From positions 1-39,882 of IMG/VR virus record IMGVR_UViG_3300027906_000050: a stretch of 39,882 nucleotides of DNA; one strand, 5' to 3'. Position numbers and translations under genes: made by a program. The notes under the pieces were generated by a model. The model did not search any database. It was not told where the DNA came from and saw only the letters and a program-made list of their open reading frames with translations. Shown one piece after another: positions 2,545-36,831 of the stretch. Source of the stretch: a virus. How positions within the stretch are numbered: the first letter of the stretch is position 1; the number at the start of each line of letters is the position of its first letter.

Positions 2545-3255
2545 TTGAAAAAATACATTTTCGATGTTGACGGAACGTTGACTCCTAGTCGGCAAAAGAT
2601 CGACTTAAATTTTGCTGACTTCTTTTTACGGTTTATTTCTAACCGTTACGTTTATCTAGTAACAGGAAGTAATCGTAAGAAAACTATTGAACAAATAACA
2701 GAACCAATTTATAACGAATGTAAGAGAGTTTATAACTGTTCAGGTAATGATGTGTATGAAGGTGCAAAAGTTATATATAGATCAGATTGGAAAATACCAA
2801 ATGAACTAAGAGAGTTCTTATTAGATGAATTAGATTTCAGTACTTTCCCTGTACGTTGCGGAAATCATATAGAGGAAAGACCTGGAGGTATTAATTTTAG
2901 TATTTTAGGAAGAAGGAAAGTTATTGATCTCAGAGAAAGACAAGACTATGTTGAATGGGATTTAAGAACTAATGAACGAAAAGATATAGCAGAAAGATTG
3001 AAAGATAGTTTTCCAAATATTTCTGTACAAATTGGTGGAGAAACAGGATTAGATATAACACCTTTAGGTAAAGATAAGAGTCAGATACTCAAAGATTTTA
3101 AGAATGAAGATGAAATATACTTCTATGGAGATATGATGGAAAAAGGTCAGAATGACTATCTTTTAGCAGAAGCAGTACTTAAAAGAAAAGGTTCTATTTA
3201 TTCTGTTAAAGATTATAAAGAAACATGGGATCTATTAGAACAGTATGAATTATGA
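2545..3255 (+). CDS. Phosphomannomutase-like HAD phosphatase/mutase
   Basis: 236 aa, TTG start with a weak ribosome site. HAD motif I is FDVDGTLT with nucleophile D7 and acid/base D9; motif II is LVTGSN near 38-43. The middle (EERPGGINFSILGRR) matches the substrate-binding cap of eukaryotic-type phosphomannomutases. Motif IV lies in YFYGDMMEKGQNDY after IGGETGLDITPLGKDKSQIL, also typical. Length is close to the usual ~245 aa. Family knowledge: these enzymes convert mannose-6-P to mannose-1-P in the cytoplasm on the way to GDP-mannose. A mannose-6-P-isomerase-type cupin and a glycosyltransferase lie near the other end of the window. Its stop overlaps the next ATG (ATGA). Confidence 0.8.
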   Translation: MKKYIFDVDGTLTPSRQKIDLNFADFFLRFISNRYVYLVTGSNRKKTIEQITEPIYNECKRVYNCSGNDVYEGAKVIYRSDWKIPNELREFLLDELDFSTFPVRCGNHIEERPGGINFSILGRRKVIDLRERQDYVEWDLRTNERKDIAERLKDSFPNISVQIGGETGLDITPLGKDKSQILKDFKNEDEIYFYGDMMEKGQNDYLLAEAVLKRKGSIYSVKDYKETWDLLEQYEL

Positions 3256-4793
3256 CTTTCGGATTCGGTAATTTCAATTCTTTTGATAAAAAGATTAAAG
3301 ATAACAAGTATAAATTTAAACCAATTAAGAATGAATTTGGTGGTAGTAGTCCTGAATCTTTATATACAATCAATAGAGAATCATGCTGGGCAAGATGGAG
3401 GAGAGGCTATGAGTTAGCCACAGCGTCGTTATATCACAATTCCTTTGATTATCCCTTTAAGTACAAAATACCCTTGCCTACGGGCGTCCCAGGAGCCTCT
3501 GGGAACCAACCAGCAATCCCTGGAGTATTCCGAGGCTTCCCAACCAAGAATAAAGAACTAGGAGTTCATTGGGCAGGTGTACGTGTAGCAGGAAGTCTTC
3601 GCTTTGATAATGTTTTAGATACTAATAATGTTCGAGCCTCTATAGCTTCAGTTACAGAAGATAATGAATTTTGGTATGTACAACTTGCAGGAACCTGGAG
3701 TTCTACTAATCCTCTGCCAGCTCCTTTATTTATTCCTATTGCTGGTACAGCTGGAATTAAACCTACAAATGGTGAAGTAATAGAAGATCGAATTATTGAA
3801 CCAGAAGGTGTACCTATCAGTAGAGGAACAATTAATCCAAGTACACAAACCAGATATGGTTATGTGCAAGCAGTCTTAGCTGATGTAAATCCAAATACAG
3901 GTTTATTAAAACTTAGAAAACGTGGATCTGTTGAAGCAACTCCTGACCAAGTACTAGTCACACCAGCAACTCGACCTCCTAATGTTGGTCGGTATTTTAT
4001 GACAGGTACTCGTTACTATTGCACTTGTCAGGATTTCACTCGTCGTCAATATGCTTACGTATCATCATTAGGGCAAAGGTCAGGTCCAAGATTTCCAAAA
4101 ACAGGAGTAGCAACATTAAAACCTGGACGTTATGAAGTTATGACGGAAGCAGGTAAAGTTGCTAACCAAGCAATGACCAGTGCTTTAACTAATAGGCAAT
4201 TAGAGATTGTTGCACCTACTGTTGAATATGAAATACCTCCAACAACTGCTGCTACAAGTAGTACAAAGATCGGAGCAACTAGAGATAACCCAGGCGTATT
4301 CAGTGACTTTGGTGGAGTATATCTAAGAAGTGGAGCTGATCCTTCTCTTCCAGGAGCAAGGTCAGAAGGCTTACCTGATTTTGAAGATTACAAAGCAAAA
4401 GATAATGTAATCACATCTTTAACAGATAGATGGAGTCCAACTCTTGATGAGTTTAGATATTGCAAACATATCTATTCGATGAAATATGAAGAAGGAGTTT
4501 TCCCTCCTGAACCCTCTGATATCCCTGTTGAAATAAAAGATGTTGTTGCATGGGAACAAAACCTTGTAAATCAAGTTGAAAAAGATCAAGAAGGAGCTGC
4601 TGCAAATATTAATAGATATGGATTGGCTTATATGGATATTCCTCCATTCAACTGTCAGTCACCAATGATGATTCAGATGATGCAAAAACTATTTAATATT
4701 CCTTCTACTTTTGTAAAATTACAGAATTTCACTATGTATGATAAAGCTGGAAGAGCTTATACACCATCTCAAGGAGGAGCACCTACAACATGA
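3252..4793 (+). CDS. Virion structural protein with split SWIM-like zinc motif
   Basis: 513 aa, ATGA-coupled to the phosphomannomutase gene. The body is Pro/Gly/Thr-rich, and DNFEFWYV-like and GRYEVMTEAG segments suggest a beta-rich structural protein. C257-T-C259-Q-D-F and C404-K-H406-I-Y look like the two halves of a SWIM-type zinc finger (CxC...CxH) separated by 144 residues. The C-terminal region has two possible helices around MIQMMQKLFNIP. Context (neck and tail genes) supports a virion role. The zinc-site reading is inference from the motif only. Confidence 0.6.
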   Translation: MTFGFGNFNSFDKKIKDNKYKFKPIKNEFGGSSPESLYTINRESCWARWRRGYELATASLYHNSFDYPFKYKIPLPTGVPGASGNQPAIPGVFRGFPTKNKELGVHWAGVRVAGSLRFDNVLDTNNVRASIASVTEDNEFWYVQLAGTWSSTNPLPAPLFIPIAGTAGIKPTNGEVIEDRIIEPEGVPISRGTINPSTQTRYGYVQAVLADVNPNTGLLKLRKRGSVEATPDQVLVTPATRPPNVGRYFMTGTRYYCTCQDFTRRQYAYVSSLGQRSGPRFPKTGVATLKPGRYEVMTEAGKVANQAMTSALTNRQLEIVAPTVEYEIPPTTAATSSTKIGATRDNPGVFSDFGGVYLRSGADPSLPGARSEGLPDFEDYKAKDNVITSLTDRWSPTLDEFRYCKHIYSMKYEEGVFPPEPSDIPVEIKDVVAWEQNLVNQVEKDQEGAAANINRYGLAYMDIPPFNCQSPMMIQMMQKLFNIPSTFVKLQNFTMYDKAGRAYTPSQGGAPTT

Positions 4794-5020
4794 CTGATCC
4801 TAAATTTGGTGACATTGTTGATACTAATTTCATCTACTCAAATGAGCAAAGAGCTGTAAGAAAATATGGAGATAGTGAAGTACAAGTTAGTGGGCAACCA
4901 GCTACTTATCATGCTGGAGATGTAGTACATTTACCTTATAAATCAACCGAAACATCTACTATTGAAGCTATCGGTTTAGCATGGTCTGGGTATGCAAATG
5001 GAGTAGCACCAGCAGAGTAG
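4790..5020 (+). CDS. Small protein, unknown, coupled to the virion gene
   Basis: 76 aa, ATGA overlap with the preceding virion gene, so probably co-translated. Mostly polar with short beta-like segments (SEVQVSG, DVVHLPY) and no Cys, membrane segment or signal peptide. It is the last gene of the left structural run before a hairpin and psbA. Function unknown; a small head or tail component is the simplest guess. Confidence 0.5.
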   Translation: MTDPKFGDIVDTNFIYSNEQRAVRKYGDSEVQVSGQPATYHAGDVVHLPYKSTETSTIEAIGLAWSGYANGVAPAE

Positions 5021-5043
5021 TCATTAATTGTATAGTTATATTA

Positions 5044-5062
5044 AGCCTTTTGTTGAAAGGCT
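5044..5062 (+). terminator. Hairpin before psbA
   Basis: AGCCTTT (5044-5050) pairs perfectly with AAAGGCT (5056-5062) around a TGTTG loop. No U-tract follows, so termination would be weak. It separates the structural run from psbA, and its stem resembles the left part of the stronger terminator after psbA. Confidence 0.5.
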
Positions 5063-5088
5063 AACACACGCCCTTATATTTAAGTACT

Positions 5089-6177
5089 ATGGCTACCGCT
5101 ATTGAAGTTAGGGAGCGACGAAGCTCTTTAACTGGCTGGCCTGAGTTTTGCGAGTGGGTTACATCAACAGACAACCGACTATATGTCGGATGGTTTGGAG
5201 TATTGATGATACCTTGCTTGCTGACGGCAGCCACTTGTTTCATTGTTGCATTTATTGCAGCACCACCAGTTGATATTGATGGAATCCGAGAACCCGTTGC
5301 AGGATCACTCCTATACGGAAACAACATCATCTCAGGAGCAGTCGTACCAAGCTCCAACGCAATCGGCATGCATTTCTACCCAATATGGGAAGCTGCAACG
5401 ATTGATGAATGGTTATACAACGGAGGGACATATCAACTCGTCATTTTCCACTTCCTCATTGGTATCGCTGCTTACATGGGACGACAATGGGAACTTAGTT
5501 ATCGACTAGGTATGCGCCCATGGATATGCGTTGCATATTCAGCTCCTGTATCCGCAGCTTTTGCAATATTTCTTATATACCCCTTTGGTCAAGGTTCCTT
5601 TTCTGATGGAATGCCTTTAGGTATTTCTGGAACTTTTAACTTTATGTTTGTCTTCCAGGCAGAACACAATATTCTGATGCATCCATTCCATATGCTTGGT
5701 GTAATTGGAATGTTTGGTGGAGCGTTGTTTTCAGCAATGCATGGTTCATTAGTGACTTCTTCACTAATCCGTGAAACAACTGATAATGAATCTCAGAACT
5801 ATGGGTATAAATTTGGACAAGGAGAAGAAACTTATAACATTGTTGCTGCACATGGCTATTTTGGTCGTCTGATCTTCCAATATGCTTCTTTCAACAATAG
5901 TCGTTCTCTTCATTTCTTTCTTGCTGCTTTCCCAGTGGTATGTGTCTGGTTTACCTCCATGGGAGTATCCACTATGGCGTTTAATCTGAATGGTTTTAAC
6001 TTTAATCAATCAGTTGTTGATGCCAATGGAAAGATCGTTCCCACCTGGGCTGACGTTCTAAACAGAGCAAACTTAGGTATGGAAGTAATGCATGAGCGTA
6101 ATGCTCATAATTTCCCACTTGATTTAGCTAGTGCTGAAACTTCTGAAGTTGCATTAATAGCACCTTCAATAGGTTAA
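5089..6177 (+). CDS. psbA: Photosystem II D1 protein
   Basis: 362 aa, full length. All cofactor ligands are present with an offset of +3 from standard numbering: Tyr-Z Y164, manganese-cluster ligands D173, E192, H335, E336, H340, D345 and A347, P680 histidine H201, quinone/iron ligands H218 and H275, and herbicide-site S267. The 15-residue tail after A347 is the usual CtpA-cleaved extension. Q133 corresponds to the low-light-type Q130. The QEEET motif of the stromal loop reads QGEET (244-248). GC falls from about 45% (first ~490 bases) to about 39% in the rest, suggesting a mosaic origin. Known role of phage psbA: replacing fast-turning-over host D1 to sustain photosynthesis during infection. 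Flanked by a hairpin and a strong terminator, so probably its own transcription unit. Confidence 0.98.
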
Positions 6178-7694: not shown

Positions 7695-10600
7695 ATGGCT
7701 AATTACTCTTTAACAACTAAAGAAAAAAATTCAGTATCGTGGAATAGTTCAAACGAGCTAGTTATAGATGGAGAAGTCTTAGGTCCTAGTACAGGTTGGA
7801 AGAAAGAAGATACTTACTATGTAAACAGGAAAAAACCTAATAGTAAAATTTTTCAATATAGTAAAGATCATGCAGATAAAAAATCATGGCTGGATGTTGA
7901 TGAAATTTCATATCTTCTTGCAGATACTTATTCAGAATGGGGTATAAGACCCTCTAATTGGTATAGAGATGGTAGACCTAAAGAAAGATATGATGAGAAA
8001 GTTAAAAACTTTGAACAGTATGGTCATCCAGGAGGAGATTTAACTAAATCAGATCAGTGGGACGAGTGTAATGATTATGGCTGTCCTGTCCAAGATAGTT
8101 GGAATGCATATGACAACGTTCGTAATCCTGTATTACCTACAACTGATGATCCTAATTGGGTACAAAATTTTTATTCAGATAATAATATAGGTGGTCAAGG
8201 TGGAGATCTTAGTGAAGATGCAAAAAAATATTGGACTGAACAATTAAGAGAATTAGGAAGTCAATCAGAAGTTGAAAGAGTTATTAGAGATACATCACAG
8301 AATGATGGCACATGGAATATGGGACATTCTAATAAAGTAAATATAATTAAAGCTGGTGCAGAAGAAGGTTCAACTGTATATAATTCTGATAATAAAAAAT
8401 TTGATATACGATTATATAACATTAGCAATAAAACAGATCATAAAACAGACCATGATACTAATCCTAATACTGTTCAGAAAACTGAAAGTTATGACGAGAA
8501 AGTATGTGGTGGAACTTGGCCTTTTGATTGGTGTGATTACGTAACGAAAACACGTGAAGTTACGGATCACGCTAAGATTAGTCAACATAAAATAATGAAT
8601 GCAGAGAATGAGAAATTAAATGAAAAAAATCATAAGATAAATGAGATAAATAGAAAAAGAAATAAACAATTAGCAAATTTAAAGAATACAGTTTTACCTT
8701 CTACTAAAGGACATGATTATGTTGAACAAAGAGAGAAACTTAGAGATTTTGATTTAGATCAAGAAACTAAATCAGCTATAGAAAAAGAATTCAGAAATTA
8801 CTATAAAGAAGAAAAAATAGTCGAATGGGATTCATCTTTAGCAGCTCCTATACCTGGAGTAGCAGGATCAAAATTTGATGCTGATTATTATAGAAGTCTC
8901 ACAAAAGGAAAGACCAATGATGTAGGTGAAAAATGGAAGGAGGCTGAAGAAGATGACGATATTGATATTACAGAACGTTATGGAGATAGTAATACATATG
9001 CTTTACAAGATTGGTCGAATACAGGTAGACATGCAGGTTTAAGAGCTTATGAAAAAGAAAATTTAGTTTTCTCTGATACTTATAAAGAATCTTTAGGAGG
9101 AAGTATTGCTGCAATACCTCAAGGTTCTTTTGAGGATGCTCTGGAAGGGAAACTCTTCATGACACCAGAAGGATGGAAAGATTTAGCAGGAGCAAATGAT
9201 TGGTATAAATCAGATGTAAAAGACAGACAATTAGGTATAGGTGAAATTGGATCACAAACAGAGCGTTTATTCAAAATTCCTTATATTAATAATGAATTTA
9301 ATAAAGCTAATAATGGAGATGAATATTGGTTAAAGCTTGCTAGAGAAAAACGTTTAAATGTTAAAAAGAAAGATGATTTTGTTTTGTTGTTTAGATTATC
9401 AGAAAGAGAAGAAGATAAAGATATACAATTCATTAATAATGTAAATAATCCATATTTCACTGGTATTACTGAATTAGAAGATGCTGTTAATCAAGCAGCT
9501 GGTGAAGATGTAGAAACAGATGTTAAGAAATTTGGAGCTTTAACTCAAAGTGTTTTAAAAGATACGATTGCAGAAATGAAGAAAGCTAAACAAAATGAAC
9601 AATTTATATCGACTATTTCAGGCTTTGGTGGATTTAGTGAAATTATGGATATGAATAGAACTCTTACTAATAGTATTTTAGGTGATAGTGGAGTAGGTGG
9701 TTATATGAGTATGATGGGTGGTGGAAAAGGAGAAGAGAAATTAGAAGAATCTATACAAAACCTTTCAGGTATTGGTAATAGTGTTACTTATAATTGGCAA
9801 AAATGGTTTGATGAAAGACTTGTTGAAAAATATTCAAAAGGTTATAAGGAACTTTTCCCCTTACAAAGAGCAAATCAAATCATAGAAAAATATCAAGAAT
9901 TTACTAAGCCTGGTAGAGCTAAAGAACAAGAAAAGATTTTCAATAAAAGTACAGGTGCTTTTACTAAAGAATTTTTAAATCAAGTAGGATTCAATACTAC
10001 AGAAGAACTTGAAGATTTTTTAAATAATCCAGAAAATTTTCCTGCTTACAATTTAGAAGCAGAAAATCCAGATGCAAGAGGGGAGTTAGATGGAAAACAT
10101 TTATTAGCAAAATTAAAAGATGAAATATATCTATCAGAATCAGATCGAACGTCTGGATTAGGGACAAAGAAAGATAATGAATGGTTAGAAGCATTGAAAG
10201 ACAATATTAATACTAGATTTACAGATAAATCAGAGGAATTAGGTGTTGAAGATTCAATAAACTTAGCAACTGGAACAGAAGATGATCCTGATACACTTGA
10301 AGATGAAAGTATAATATCTATAGAATCTGATTTTGCTAGAGATTTTATAAACAATTATTTGACAAAAAGATTTGATACTTCTAGATCTATGGATGAATTT
10401 GTTGAGTATTTAGATATTAGAGATGAAGAACAGAACCCTTTCCAAACACAAGATTTATTGAATGCTGTAAAACAAACTGCTGAATTAGAGAGTAAAGCAT
10501 ATCTAAGCTCATTTAGTAATACGGACTATGCTGGTTTCAATGCTAGTTATTATTTAGATCCTACACAAGTTGAAACCGAATATGTAGCTAGAGCAACTAG

Positions 10601-19729: not shown

Positions 19730-21949
19730 ATGCCATATATAGGTAATACCACTGCTGATTTCAGTATTAATACTGGAAATATAACAAATAGGGCAGTAAC
19801 TGCATTAAAACTTAGTCCTTCAAGTGTAGGTTCTAATGGTCAAGTATTAAGTGTAGATGGAAGTGGGAATTTACAATGGGGAAATGATACAGCAGGAATT
19901 CCAGCTTCAGGAGGTACGTTTACAGGAGATATAAGTTTTAATGATAATATTTCTGCTAAATTCGGAGCTGATTTTGATTTAACTATTAAAAGTAATGGGT
20001 CTTCTGGTTTTATACAGACTCAACATTCTGGAGGAACTTTATATTTAGGAACAACAACTAGCGATAATTTGATGAATATCACAGCAAGTGGTATTACTTT
20101 CTTAGGTGAAACTTTTTGGACTAATGGTAATGATATTAAAATAAATGATAGTTCTAAAATTTTAGTTGGTACAGGAAATGATCTAACTATACAGCACAGT
20201 AATTCAAGTAATATTAGTAGTATCGGACATAGTAACGCTGCTGGAAGTTTACAGTTAAGTAGTCCAAATAGTGTAGGTGTGGAATTATATGCTGTTGGAG
20301 CAAATACAGATTATGTACTTCTTAGATATGGAGGAGGTGATAGATTATTCACAACTGCTGAAGGAATAAAAGTACAATGGGCTACTGGAAATGCAGGAGA
20401 AATTCATATAGCTGAAGGAACTAGTAATGGTTCACATACAGTAGCTTTAACATGTCCAGCTTCTGTTGCTGCTAGTTATAAGATTACTCTTCCAGGTGCA
20501 GTTCCAACTAGTAACGGACAAGTATTAGCTGCCACAACTGCTGGTATAGGTAGTTGGATTGACGTAACTGCATTATCTGGATCAACTAATAACACTATTT
20601 GTACAGTCACAGGTGCAAACGCTATTCAAGGGGAGGCAAATCTTACTTATAACGGTACTGATACATTAAGTATTGATCATAGTGCTACAGATGAAAATAG
20701 TTATATAAAAATAGCTGCTGATGATAATAGAAGAAAAACTTTAGTATTTGATAGTGGTGGTACGACTAGAGGAGTTATAGGTATTGGAGATTCTGACGAA
20801 GCTGTTGCAACTACATTATTTTTAAGTGCAAATAGTAATGTTGCTGGTAATAGTCCACATTTAGTTATATTATCAGATGGAAAAGTTGGTATAACAACTA
20901 CAACACCAACAACAAATTTGAATGTTGCTGGAGGTTTCCATGTTTCAGGAACTGCAAACCAAACTAAAGCACAAGATGGTTTACTTTTTCAAAGAAATAC
21001 TTCAAGTGGTAATTGTGAGATTATTGCAGGTAGAGCTGGAGGTAATTATACAGCACTAGAACATTATGTTGCTGGTGCAAATGGAGTAACGAAAAGATAT
21101 TCTGTTGATTATCAAAGTAATCATAAATGGTTTGCTGCAAATGGAACTACACAGACAGTGTGTATAGATTTGAGTGGTCATGTTGGTATAGGTACAGCAT
21201 CTCCAAATGTAGGAGGGCATGATAAATCTCTAAGTATTAGTAATACAGCGGTATCAGCAAGATCAGCAGTCAATATTGAAGGTAATACTGCTAACTGTCA
21301 TGCCTGTGTTGAGATGAGGAATAATGGAACATTAGTTAGTGGTGTCTATAGTAGAGGTACAAATAGATTACAATTCGGTACTGGTGCTAGTGGGACTGTT
21401 GCAGTAGAGGTTAATGATAAAGACTTAAAAATAGAAGACGGCAACCTAATAATAGGAACTGCTGGTCACGGTATTAACTTTCATAATTATGCAACTTCTG
21501 GAAACCCTAGTTCAAATTTATTAGATGATTATGAAGAGGGAACTTGGACACCTGTATTAGCAGGTCTAACTAATCACACTGTTTATTATGTCTCTGGTAA
21601 TGGAAGTTATACAAGGATTGGTAGGCACGTATATTGTCAAGTATCTTTGCATAATGTAGATCTCAACGATAGTGCAAGTGGACGAATATTGATAAAAGGG
21701 TTGCCTTTCACTGAATATAAAACTGCCAGTGGAGCAGTAAGAGCCGTCACTAGTGATTTTATGACTCACAAAGTATATTACCCTCACTCTGGTGATAGGA
21801 ATTGGTACTCGTGGTATATATCTGACAGTGATCATCTAGTTGGACAGAGATCTAATGACGGTGGTGATTGGACCGCTTGGGACGCAAGTAATTTCACTTT
21901 ATCTGGCGTATATATTGATCTAAGTTTTACCTATGTAACTACTACATAA
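19730..21949 (+). CDS. Tail fibre protein with exchangeable tip domain
   Basis: 739 aa. Begins MPYIGNTTADFSINTGNITN, a common start of cyanophage fibre proteins, followed by long Gly/Ser/Asn-rich strand-turn repeats typical of fibre shafts. Near residue 577 comes GHGINFHNYATSGNPSSNL and then a DDYEEGTWTP motif, which marks the junction to a ~130-residue C-terminal head (RIGRHVYCQVSLHNVDLND onward). The junction is almost identical in DNA to that of the gene at 23309, but the heads differ. The tip probably binds host surface glycans. It starts two bases after the preceding stop. Confidence 0.8.
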   Translation: MPYIGNTTADFSINTGNITNRAVTALKLSPSSVGSNGQVLSVDGSGNLQWGNDTAGIPASGGTFTGDISFNDNISAKFGADFDLTIKSNGSSGFIQTQHSGGTLYLGTTTSDNLMNITASGITFLGETFWTNGNDIKINDSSKILVGTGNDLTIQHSNSSNISSIGHSNAAGSLQLSSPNSVGVELYAVGANTDYVLLRYGGGDRLFTTAEGIKVQWATGNAGEIHIAEGTSNGSHTVALTCPASVAASYKITLPGAVPTSNGQVLAATTAGIGSWIDVTALSGSTNNTICTVTGANAIQGEANLTYNGTDTLSIDHSATDENSYIKIAADDNRRKTLVFDSGGTTRGVIGIGDSDEAVATTLFLSANSNVAGNSPHLVILSDGKVGITTTTPTTNLNVAGGFHVSGTANQTKAQDGLLFQRNTSSGNCEIIAGRAGGNYTALEHYVAGANGVTKRYSVDYQSNHKWFAANGTTQTVCIDLSGHVGIGTASPNVGGHDKSLSISNTAVSARSAVNIEGNTANCHACVEMRNNGTLVSGVYSRGTNRLQFGTGASGTVAVEVNDKDLKIEDGNLIIGTAGHGINFHNYATSGNPSSNLLDDYEEGTWTPVLAGLTNHTVYYVSGNGSYTRIGRHVYCQVSLHNVDLNDSASGRILIKGLPFTEYKTASGAVRAVTSDFMTHKVYYPHSGDRNWYSWYISDSDHLVGQRSNDGGDWTAWDASNFTLSGVYIDLSFTYVTTT
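21464..21552 (+). repeat. Fibre junction repeat, copy 1
   Basis: 89 bases nearly identical to 24320-24408: the first 54 bases are identical, and about five mismatches follow. Encodes the junction between fibre shaft and receptor-binding head. Confidence 0.9.
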
Positions 21950-23308: not shown

Positions 23309-24796
23309 ATGGCACTCACACTTAACGGAACAACAGGAATTTCAGGTATCGCAGGTAGTGAAGGAACACCAGCATTACAAGGAAATAATGATGCCAATAC
23401 TGGTTATTTTTTTGCTGCAGATACTTTAGGTTTAAGTACAGCTGGTACTGAAAGACTTCGCATAGGATCTTCAGGCGAAATGTACATTGGAACTACTAGT
23501 TGGCCTACTGGTACAATGGCCAAAGCAGCAGGTAGAGTATTAGTAGGTGGTGGAGGTGATTTAACTTTATGGAATGAAACTAATAGTGCTGGTGGTGTTG
23601 CTTCCTTTAAATTAGCTTGTAAAGAGGGTGGAGATGCTACCAAGATTGGTTACGTTCAGTTCTTTGGAGGAACAGAAAATACAAGTGATCAGAAAGGTTT
23701 TTTAAAAATAAACGTTTCAGATGCAAGTGGTAGTGGACAAGAAAGACTTCGCATCACATCAGGTGGAGATCTAAGACTTGGTTTAGATTCAGTTGCTAAC
23801 GTAACTGACTCTGCCCATTATATAATGACTTTGACTGGAAAATCTGGACAGACTGGTGCAGGAGCAATTGCATTTAGAGATCCATCTGCAAATACAGATG
23901 GTTTTATATTTGCAGATAGTGGAAATCTTTTTATAACAGCAGATTATAGTAGTGCTACCGCAGACTCAAGTATAAGATTTAGGATAGATGGATCTAGTGA
24001 AAAACTTCGCATTGATTCGAGTGGAAGATTAATACAAAGATATAGTGCTGCTCCATATGATAATAGGGCAGCCACATTCCAATCATCAGCTGGAATAGAT
24101 TCAACTTATATTGCTATCGTAAACACCGAGACAAATGGTACATCTGGAATATTATTTGGAGATCATGCTGGGCAAGCTGCTGGTAACTACACAGGTTACA
24201 TAAACTACCAGCATAATAATGATGAAATGAGGTTTATGACTAATGGTGGGAATGAGAGATTTATGATTGGATCAGGTGGCGATGTAACAATAACTGACGG
24301 CAACCTAAAAGTTGTCTCTGGTCACGGTATTAACTTTCATAATTATGCAACTTCTGGAAACCCTAGTTCAAATCTATTAGACGACTATGAAGAAGGAACT
24401 TGGACTCCAAGTTACTCAGCAGGTAGTGCTACTACTTTATCCGTCTCAGCAGCTGGCAGATATACAAAAATTGGTAGACAAGTATTAGCAAGATTTGAAA
24501 TGAAGACAGGTAATACTAATAATGTTAGTGGACAAATTAAAATTACTGGATTACCGTTCACATCAGCTAGTGACTCTGTTTATGGTAGTCCCGTATGTTT
24601 TAATTTTGTGAGAGATTGGGCAACAAATTTTGGAACGAATCTTAGAGGTGGTGTTGATAACGGAGGAACAACAATTAGTTTATTTGTACATGCTAGTAAT
24701 GCAGATGAATCTACAACTTACCTTCAAGGATCTGATATGGCAATGGGAAATGCAGCAGAGAACTATATGGAAGGAGTAGCAATCTATACTGTCTAA
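23309..24796 (+). CDS. Tail fibre protein with exchangeable tip domain
   Basis: 495 aa from the ATG at 23309, preceded by AGGAG; an in-frame TTG at 23225 lies inside the preceding gene and is rejected. MALTLNGTTGISGI and TGYFFAADTLGLSTAGTERL open a shaft with repeated ERLRI and SSGRL units. The junction GHGINFHNYATSGNPSSNL followed by EEGTWTP is shared with the gene at 19730, then a different ~125-residue head (YTKIGRQVLARFEMKTGNT onward). Probably a receptor-binding fibre. Confidence 0.8.
   Translation: MALTLNGTTGISGIAGSEGTPALQGNNDANTGYFFAADTLGLSTAGTERLRIGSSGEMYIGTTSWPTGTMAKAAGRVLVGGGGDLTLWNETNSAGGVASFKLACKEGGDATKIGYVQFFGGTENTSDQKGFLKINVSDASGSGQERLRITSGGDLRLGLDSVANVTDSAHYIMTLTGKSGQTGAGAIAFRDPSANTDGFIFADSGNLFITADYSSATADSSIRFRIDGSSEKLRIDSSGRLIQRYSAAPYDNRAATFQSSAGIDSTYIAIVNTETNGTSGILFGDHAGQAAGNYTGYINYQHNNDEMRFMTNGGNERFMIGSGGDVTITDGNLKVVSGHGINFHNYATSGNPSSNLLDDYEEGTWTPSYSAGSATTLSVSAAGRYTKIGRQVLARFEMKTGNTNNVSGQIKITGLPFTSASDSVYGSPVCFNFVRDWATNFGTNLRGGVDNGGTTISLFVHASNADESTTYLQGSDMAMGNAAENYMEGVAIYTV
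24320..24408 (+). repeat. Fibre junction repeat, copy 2
   Basis: Partner of 21464-21552, 2856 bases apart in direct orientation. The identical 54-base core ends at 24373. A shared GACGGCAACCTAA lies shortly upstream in both genes. Confidence 0.9.
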
Positions 24797-35093: not shown

Positions 35094-35110
35094 AGGTGTT
35101 GTAAAAACCT

Positions 35111-35235
35111 AGAATAGGATAGAAATTTCTTATGTCTATAGCTAAATTACACTTTTATTCTAAGTTTTGTAGTCTCATAAGACTCAGAATAGAAGTGTAA
35201 TCTTCCCTATGTATAAGAAAAAAATAACCTATTCT
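35111..35235 (-). other. Nested inverted repeats (structured RNA or cruciform)
   Basis: Four nested arm pairs: AGAATAGG (35111-35118) with CCTATTCT (35228-35235); TTTCTTAT (35126-35133) with ATAAGAAA (35213-35220); ATTACACTTTTATTCT (35146-35161) with its partner 35186-35201 (15 of 16 paired by Watson-Crick, plus one G-U or C/A depending on strand); and AGTCT (35171-35175) with AGACT (35180-35184). It fills most of the intergenic gap and just overlaps the cupin stop. Confidence 0.7.
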
Positions 35236-35588
35236 GTGTTTTTCTGCACACGCCCATAGTCATCTTCGATCCTTATGATGTCGTCTTCAGAAAGTTTTTC
35301 CCCATGTTGGACTTCTATGATCACTAGTTGATCTCCAATAGCTTTCGCTCTATGTTCTGATCCACGCTTGATTTTGACGACCTTACCTTCACGAGCGATC
35401 TGCCAAAAGTTCTCAGAAAATATTTCTCCCTTTCCACGGGCTATAGTCCAAGTTTCATCTCGATGCTCATGCTTCTGGAGGCTTAATTGTTGACCTTCAT
35501 TGATGGTGATGATTTTAGTCTTATAACCTGGTTCTTCATAAAGATCCATCCACCATCCCCAAGGTCGGAATGTGATCTTTCTAAACAT
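35229..35588 (-). CDS. Cupin, mannose-6-phosphate isomerase type II-like
   Basis: 119 aa. RPWGWWMDLYEEPGYKTKII, LSLQKHEHRDETWTIARGKG, RGSEHRAKAIG and IEVQHGEKLSEDDIIRIEDD-YGR follow the C-terminal isomerase domain of bifunctional ManC/AlgA proteins closely. Metal ligands would be H40, H42, probably E45, and H79. Family knowledge: interconverts fructose-6-P and mannose-6-P. It overlaps the glycosyltransferase stop by eight bases. Confidence 0.85.
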   Translation of the reverse strand: MFRKITFRPWGWWMDLYEEPGYKTKIITINEGQQLSLQKHEHRDETWTIARGKGEIFSENFWQIAREGKVVKIKRGSEHRAKAIGDQLVIIEVQHGEKLSEDDIIRIEDDYGRVQKNTE

Positions 35589-36831
35589 TACCTATCTTCC
35601 TCTTCTTACGAGTTTTTTTAGCAGTTACTTTTTTAACAGAATGATCAACACCTTTAACTGTGTCCTCAAATATTCCTGCGAATTGTGCTCCTATCTTTTC
35701 CCAAGTAAATTGTTCTTCTAAAGCTCGTGTATAACAGAGTTCAGCCGTAGCATCTAATTTATCTCTATCATTATATAGATCGTTAAGAATTTCTACTAAA
35801 TGATCAGTAGAAGGACAAGGCATTTCTCTACCGTAATTTGTATCTACATCTATATGATCACATCGTATGAGTTGACCGTATCCTTCAAAGATTTCCTTAC
35901 ATGAAGTATGCCCTGGAACAACTTGGGCTATTCGACAAGCAGCTTGCTCAAAATTAACAAGACCCCAACCCTCACCCTTACAGGTATTTACACCTACATC
36001 AGCAGCATTATAAATTGTATTCAAGGTTTCTACCTCAACACTTGGAGGACCCTCAACATCTGCTGTAAGAATAATCCTGCCATTTGGATCTATTTTATTG
36101 CGTTTCATTTCTCGATCAAAGAGATGCATGATATCCCAGCCTTGATCTTTCTTACCCATATGTAAGTAGAGCTGTGTGTCAGGTTTATCTTTTGCGAACT
36201 TAGCGAAGGCAGCGATTGTTATATCAATACGTTTACGGAATTGATTCCTATTACCGTTGAAGACAATAAAAATATCTTCTTTGAGATTTAGTTCCTTACG
36301 AGCTTCTTTTTTATCCATTGGATAGAACTGCCCTGGAGTAACACCATGAGGTACAACAGCAATAGGTTTTGTAATACCGCCTTGTATAAATTCATAAGCA
36401 CCAAACTTTGTATATGAAATAACTCCATCCCAATCGTTAGCAGTATCAGCTAAACAACCAATCCAGCCATAAGAATCCATAGGTGCATAACCTATAAATT
36501 TAAATTTCTTTTTCTCATGGAAATCTTTTATTTGTCGATATTGCTCATTAATAATCCACATATCATTGATTGTGAATACTAAGTCAGGAGCTTCTGCTTG
36601 AACTATTTCTCTAATTCTGTTCTCTCCAAAAGGTGCAGTCTGAAACCTATTGGATGAGGGATACATTTTATATTTCTTTTGAAGCGGATGAGGATCACCC
36701 CACCAGTTATGCCCTAATACAACAATATTAAATTTCTTGGCTAAGTAAGGAAGAACATTTTCAGTCACACGAGCGAATCCAGTCTTTGCAGCTATGTCAC
36801 CACACCACAAAAGCTTTGGTTTTTTTGCCAT
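35581..36831 (-). CDS. Glycosyltransferase, GT-B fold (GT4-like)
   Basis: 416 aa. The N-terminal Rossmann half (KLLWCGDIAAKTGFARVTEN, phosphate loop near GFAR) and PHGVTPGQFYP lead to the donor-binding half (VFNGNRNQFRKRIDI) and EGWGLVNFEQAA, the ExxxxxxxE sugar-nucleotide motif of GT4-type enzymes. The C-terminal 25 residues are Lys/Arg-rich. Cytoplasmic, no membrane segment. With the cupin it suggests transfer of mannose or a related sugar, to host surface glycan, virion or DNA; the acceptor is unknown. Confidence 0.85.
   Translation of the reverse strand: MAKKPKLLWCGDIAAKTGFARVTENVLPYLAKKFNIVVLGHNWWGDPHPLQKKYKMYPSSNRFQTAPFGENRIREIVQAEAPDLVFTINDMWIINEQYRQIKDFHEKKKFKFIGYAPMDSYGWIGCLADTANDWDGVISYTKFGAYEFIQGGITKPIAVVPHGVTPGQFYPMDKKEARKELNLKEDIFIVFNGNRNQFRKRIDITIAAFAKFAKDKPDTQLYLHMGKKDQGWDIMHLFDREMKRNKIDPNGRIILTADVEGPPSVEVETLNTIYNAADVGVNTCKGEGWGLVNFEQAACRIAQVVPGHTSCKEIFEGYGQLIRCDHIDVDTNYGREMPCPSTDHLVEILNDLYNDRDKLDATAELCYTRALEEQFTWEKIGAQFAGIFEDTVKGVDHSVKKVTAKKTRKKRKIGNV

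Follow-up and report, generated by a model that had tools for sequence, protein, structure and literature searches.

A nested inverted repeat that varies together with an adjacent HNH-fold gene in a family of cyanophages

Introduction

In the 39,882-nt stretch of virus DNA analysed here (IMG/VR record IMGVR_UViG_3300027906_000050; hereafter the window), a large nested inverted repeat (IR) separates a cupin gene from a small HNH gene, both on the minus strand. What is this element, and is it maintained as RNA or as DNA? The initial annotation, made from the sequence alone, had considered a structured RNA, an attachment or resolution site, a target of the HNH protein and a replication element.

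Results

Structure and setting of the inverted repeat

All four annotated arm pairs were found in the window sequence (Table 1), and the single mismatch reported for the 16-base pair is a G-U pair in the RNA of the plus strand. AAAAAC/GTTTTT prolongs the repeat outward, giving outer arms at 35103-35133 and 35213-35243 and a total extent somewhat larger than the 35111-35235 annotated initially. In the sense (minus) direction, the IR runs from the last cupin codons to ~10 bp upstream of the hnhS start codon. Across the 39.9-kb window, no other closely matched inverted repeat whose arms lie within 150 bp of each other is as long, and no second copy was found in the window record. Chance nesting had been called unlikely, with folding of both strands against shuffled sequences proposed as a check. 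The predicted RNA folds reached -49.9 kcal/mol on the plus strand (z -7.6) and -43.5 kcal/mol on the minus strand (z -6.1), and none of 200 shuffles attained either value. The IR is thus far above chance on both strands, and its arms are preserved in relatives. No terminator-like site was detected at the IR in a search for intrinsic terminators; in distant relatives, inspection by eye showed a terminator-like hairpin ahead of the IR and distinct from it.

Table 1 Features of the IR locus, with positions in the window
Feature	Position	Strand	Remarks
Whole nested inverted repeat (IR)	35103-35243	no strand	Fold, repeat scan, same place in relatives
Outermost reported arm pair, AGAATAGG / CCTATTCT	35111-35118 / 35228-35235		
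Second arm pair, TTTCTTAT / ATAAGAAA	35126-35133 / 35213-35220		
Third arm pair, ATTACACTTTTATTCT / AGAATAGAAGTGTAAT	35146-35161 / 35186-35201		One mismatch
Innermost arm pair, AGTCT / AGACT	35171-35175 / 35180-35184		
Apex palindrome AGTCTCATAAGACT	35171-35184	no strand	Glycosyltransferase gene there instead in some relatives
Motif copy a' (AAAACCTAGAATAG)	35104-35117	+	Outer, adjoining hnhS start
Motif copy b' (minus strand AAAACTTAGAATA)	35156-35168	-	Inner
Motif copy b (AAGACTCAGAATAG)	35179-35192	+	Inner, weakest copy
Motif copy a (minus strand AAAACACAGAATAG)	35229-35242	-	Outer, overlapping cupin stop codon
Core motif ATTACACT	35146-35153	+	Partner of copy at 35194-35201
Second core motif copy (AGTGTAAT on plus strand)	35194-35201	-	
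Weak sigma-70-like promoter, TAGACA-16-TATTCT	35111-35138	-	-10 overlaps motif a'; suggestive only
Cupin gene (mannose-6-phosphate isomerase C-terminal type)	35229-35588	-	Its end inside the IR
hnhS, small HNH_3-type protein, 113 aa	34752-35093	-	Modelled fold nearest I-HmuI; co-varies with IR
hnhL, conserved zinc-loop His-Me-finger-type protein, 227 aa	34076-34759	-	

The gene order on the minus strand of the window is primase-helicase, glycosyltransferase, cupin, IR, hnhS, hnhL and a conserved gene of 240 aa. A psbA gene at 5089 suggests that the host is a cyanobacterium, and the window is a member of a large cyanophage family. Among cultured phages, Synechococcus phage S-EIV1 is the closest to the window, with 61.5% identity in the primase; in the collection searched, no other cultured member of the family was found and no other phage record contained a relative of hnhL. 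In S-EIV1, the longest short-range inverted repeat sits at the same locus as the IR. The right part of the window gave no match to phages by megablast, no hnhL relative turned up in the bacterial and archaeal genome contigs searched, and a literature search returned no paper with both S-EIV1 and inverted repeats.

We sampled more than 80 IMG/VR contigs with primase or HNH genes. Most of the 66 distinct loci have the order primase, glycosyltransferase, (cupin), IR, hnhS, hnhL and conserved gene, and a large IR was present in most of the 66 distinct gaps upstream of hnhS that were compared. Additional hnhS loci provided 31 new upstream regions; in 16 of them the IR was unreached by any shuffle, with a z of 5 or more, and several others contained a weaker IR. 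Little or no IR was present within 300 bp upstream of hnhS in L242 and L247-L251, and in the groups L110-L118 and L242-L251 it was weak or reduced to the outer pair. Nearly all relatives whose stretch covers the locus carry hnhS and/or hnhL there.

Motif array within the arms

The outer and inner arms bear one shared motif four times, via two further inverted pairs (I3 and I4) that the initial annotation had missed. In the window this motif is AAAACnnAGAATAG, with copies in alternating orientation. It is ~13 bp long and genome-specific, and at up to one mismatch it occurs only or nearly only at the IR locus in the window and the relatives checked. When it changes between genomes, all copies change together. 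Across ten motif alleles, agreement between genomes was 0.64-0.65, compared with 0.93 for the hairpin partners a and a' and 0.90 for the non-partners a and b' within a genome; motif quartets were picked by similarity, which somewhat favours the inner-copy figures, and their positions were consistent. L170 has six copies symmetric about one centre plus one extra, and S-EIV1 (L177) has three exact copies of GGATATGTAAGAT at 7716, 7876 and 7909, all at the IR locus. One of the S-EIV1 copies lies shortly upstream of a possible unannotated hnhS start. The core motif recurs inside the IR of many relatives as the variants (A)ATTACACT and (A)ATGACACT.

Some alleles accommodate a whole gene between the arms. 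A glycosyltransferase gene occupies this place in L003, L089, L095, L096, L097 and L187, and probably also in L188; the arms of L187 and L188 are more widely spaced. The last residues and the stop codon of the interposed gene are encoded by the right IR arm. The gene accompanies the AGAATGA allele, being present in L097 and absent from L082, two genomes with flanks 90-95% identical. Outside the arms, L082 carries a 344-aa minus-strand ORF between cupin and IR (4767-5801), kinase-like by eye; an insert of similar size is present in L083 and absent from L081.

Joint exchange of the IR and hnhS

Phage pairs that are 94-97% identical in the glycosyltransferase gene were found to share only 62-83% identity in the IR and 71-74% in hnhS. 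For example, L108, L109 and L144 are 96-97% identical in primase and glycosyltransferase, compared with 78-83% in the IR and 73-74% in hnhS. The edges of the exchanged tracts are sharp; between L109 and L144, counted from the hnhS start, they fall near -180 and +300, and between L108 and L144 the tract extends into hnhL. Similar drops in identity were observed for L082/L097, L086/L096 and L145/L147. Against L108 and L144, L109 shares its motif and seven hnhS columns at 80-96 with L119, despite flanking genes that are just 77-86% identical between L109 and L119.

For 58 genomes, IR divergence was correlated with that of the neighbouring genes using pairs with close glycosyltransferase genes. 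IR and hnhS were associated given the flanking genes (partial Mantel r = 0.67, p = 0.002, the permutation floor). In these pairs no significant correlation was obtained between the IR and hnhL with hnhS included (r = 0.09), the primase (r = 0.07) or the downstream gene p240 (r = -0.09). The IR also correlates with hnhL over all pairs, among which distant pairs have unreliable IR alignment. Sequence comparison indicates that the IR and hnhS are exchanged together as matched versions of one cassette. Because the two are adjacent, their association could also reflect linkage within one exchange tract without recognition.

Proteins encoded next to the array

HnhS matches a PHROG HNH family (E 6.5e-12), and 19 of 37 members gave a weak match to Pfam HNH_3 (best 2.7e-05). 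Its AF2 model (pLDDT 88.8) is nearest to I-HmuI (Z 6.3 over 84 residues), and HnhS is accordingly predicted to have an HNH/His-Me fold related to that enzyme. The gene evolves fast, with just four invariant columns. The HNH His/Asn segment is present in the window protein and most other members; it is lost in L145, L147, L151, L156, L158 and L162, where the gene and, mostly, the IR persist.

HnhL is highly conserved, and 10 of 30 members give a weak match to a zinc-loop signature. Its model is nearest to the DNA-binding folds of NFI, Smad MH1 and I-PpoI (Z 4-5); the moderate fold matches of both proteins could reflect a common arrangement. PDB sequence searches with the hnhS and hnhL profiles gave no useful match. 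Two positions ahead of the first Cys in CGNPWC, at what we take to be the site of the catalytic His in I-PpoI, most HnhL members have Arg, and this makes a nuclease or homing role uncertain. In L120, hnhS and hnhL are fused in one reading frame; the four-copy motif of the L120 IR is AATGACACTTT.

Discussion

On balance, we favour the view that the IR is an array of type-specific DNA sites which HnhS would bind and which is exchangeable with hnhS as a cassette. The IR would then be a double-stranded DNA recognition element, made of convergent ~13-bp motif copies and a more conserved core motif. HnhS, whose gene starts ~10 bp from the IR, most likely binds this array, probably with HnhL as its partner. 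When co-infecting relatives recombine, the cassette of IR and hnhS would be replaced whole, leading to matched alleles among otherwise near-identical phages; heterotypic alleles may be outcompeted or converted. The cassette probably originated from a free-standing homing-endonuclease locus, perhaps domesticated since, and the copies beside hnhS may act as an operator that is bound without cutting, by analogy with I-TevI. These putative operator sites lie ~10 bp upstream of hnhS; the promoter-like match overlapping a' is weak, and matches of this kind are no commoner in the IR region than expected by chance. Of the roles first suggested, the HNH target fares best, as a site in DNA tied to the neighbouring HNH gene, with which it co-varies and is exchanged.

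Alternatively, the locus could be a classical selfish homing locus, in which cleavage is directed at the IR of rival genomes and the link with hnhS is a mere co-conversion tract. We regard this as possible but rather unlikely. The sharp replacement tracts centred on IR and hnhS, sometimes reaching into hnhL, and the modelled I-HmuI-like fold of HnhS would fit such a locus, and published work has documented HNH genes that sit at exchange boundaries and HNH genes that act in marker exclusion (PMC10448857, PMC12724721). However, the gene's own genome holds intact motif copies, and several hnhS genes lack the catalytic residues. Furthermore, the locus is kept family-wide instead of showing the sporadic spread of homing genes, and exchange was seen only between alleles that both carry the gene.

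That the IR acts as a structured RNA, or as a hairpin in the mRNA ahead of hnhS through which translation or processing is controlled, is improbable. Both strands do fold far better than shuffles, pairing survives changes on both sides in a few cases (4 of 38 pairs), and hairpins are known ahead of T4-type homing genes (PMC2988022); control of this kind has been proposed for seg43(25) and shown for other phage homing genes. Yet non-partner motif copies match as well as hairpin partners, and a whole gene parts the arms in several relatives. Sense-strand G.U pairs do not consistently exceed A.C in the IR stems (G.U:A.C 29:50 and 15:58 in the marine clades, and 36:35, 25:26 and 39:22 elsewhere), in counts restricted to avoid long gaps, where loop sequence mixes in. 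The equal match of non-partners and the lack of a preference for G.U over A.C argue that RNA structure is not the main constraint on the IR. Moreover, an Rfam scan gave no match at gathering scores and a tRNA scan found nothing. In the search for covariation suggested initially, the arms proved to be kept in relatives and the RNAalifold covariation term was not favourable (+0.6). In the marine clades, the two- to fourfold excess of A.C over G.U on the sense strand makes the antisense strand G.U-rich, which may be due to base composition or to an antisense RNA.

We also give little credence to a replication origin or replication/segregation site, formed by an iteron-like array with a phage initiator. 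The iteron-like copies, their palindromic layout and the DNA-level constraint agree with this idea, as does a primase-helicase gene 1.8 kb from the IR in the window, but the primase is 96-97% identical where the motif changes and shows no correlation with it (r 0.07), and neither S-EIV1 nor the window has a GC-skew extremum at the IR. Since the primase does not track the motif, recognition of an origin by this neighbouring protein is disfavoured; the replication element of the initial annotation retains some room in other replication roles.

A recombination/attachment or packaging site is very improbable: the palindromic layout and the cargo gene between the arms of some alleles would suit it, but in ten contigs of 68-85 kb the IR and the contig ends are 10-37 kb apart, which rules against a virion end, cos or pac and disfavours the virion-end version of the attachment or resolution site, and in addition the terminase is >30 kb away in S-EIV1, whose annotation contains no integrase, and the window record has no second IR copy.

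The favoured reading, an HnhS-bound array, has partial parallels in known systems. In the lambda immunity region (repressor and operators) and at lambda O-ori, a specificity gene and several cognate DNA sites are swapped together between close relatives, as are hnhS and its several sites; the HnhS fold is unrelated, and the setting is a cyanophage. Smad MH1 and NFI have His-Me-finger-like DNA-binding domains that bind palindromic DNA, and the HnhL model resembles these as well as I-PpoI; they are, however, eukaryotic transcription factors, and the likeness is moderate (Z 4-5 only). T4 I-TevI represses its own synthesis by binding to an operator that precedes the I-TevI gene (PMC2988022). A copy of the enzyme's own recognition sequence lies at the promoter of this gene, and by analogy the same DNA-level autoregulation may apply to hnhS. 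In contrast to I-TevI, a GIY-YIG intron enzyme with one operator, the IR locus combines a palindromic array of 4-6 copies with a free-standing HNH-fold gene, family-wide. A study on Skunavirus describes I-HmuI-like HNHEs as free-standing HNH homing genes linked to marker exclusion and cites SegF and SegG (PMC12724721). Like these, hnhS has a predicted I-HmuI-like fold and is surrounded by tracts of exchange among close relatives; unlike them, it is not sporadic, its conserved multi-copy palindromic site is exchanged with it, and some members lack the catalytic segment.

The locus ties a non-coding palindrome to a specific protein through evolution alone, in a widespread cyanophage group. If HnhS binds its own array, these phages would possess a typed module for DNA recognition whose diversification outpaces that of the remaining genome, a homing-type fold would have been domesticated into a specificity factor, and competition or compatibility between cyanophages would become directly testable. 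Speculatively, and with considerable doubt, the array, a fast-evolving HNH-fold protein for which cutting is no longer required and a conserved His-Me/NFI-like partner might form a family-wide specificity module deciding whether co-infecting phages are compatible, be it through exclusion, immunity or replication typing; the arm gap would serve as a cargo slot.

Elsewhere in the window, a palindrome with 15-nt arms, AACTTTCATAATTATGCAACTT, occurs twice in tail-fibre-like genes (21476-21497 and 24332-24353). A eukaryotic-type phosphomannomutase-like HAD protein is encoded at 2545-3255 (PF03332, 8.5e-22) and, together with the cupin and the glycosyltransferase (35581-36831), possibly makes up a surface-sugar set.
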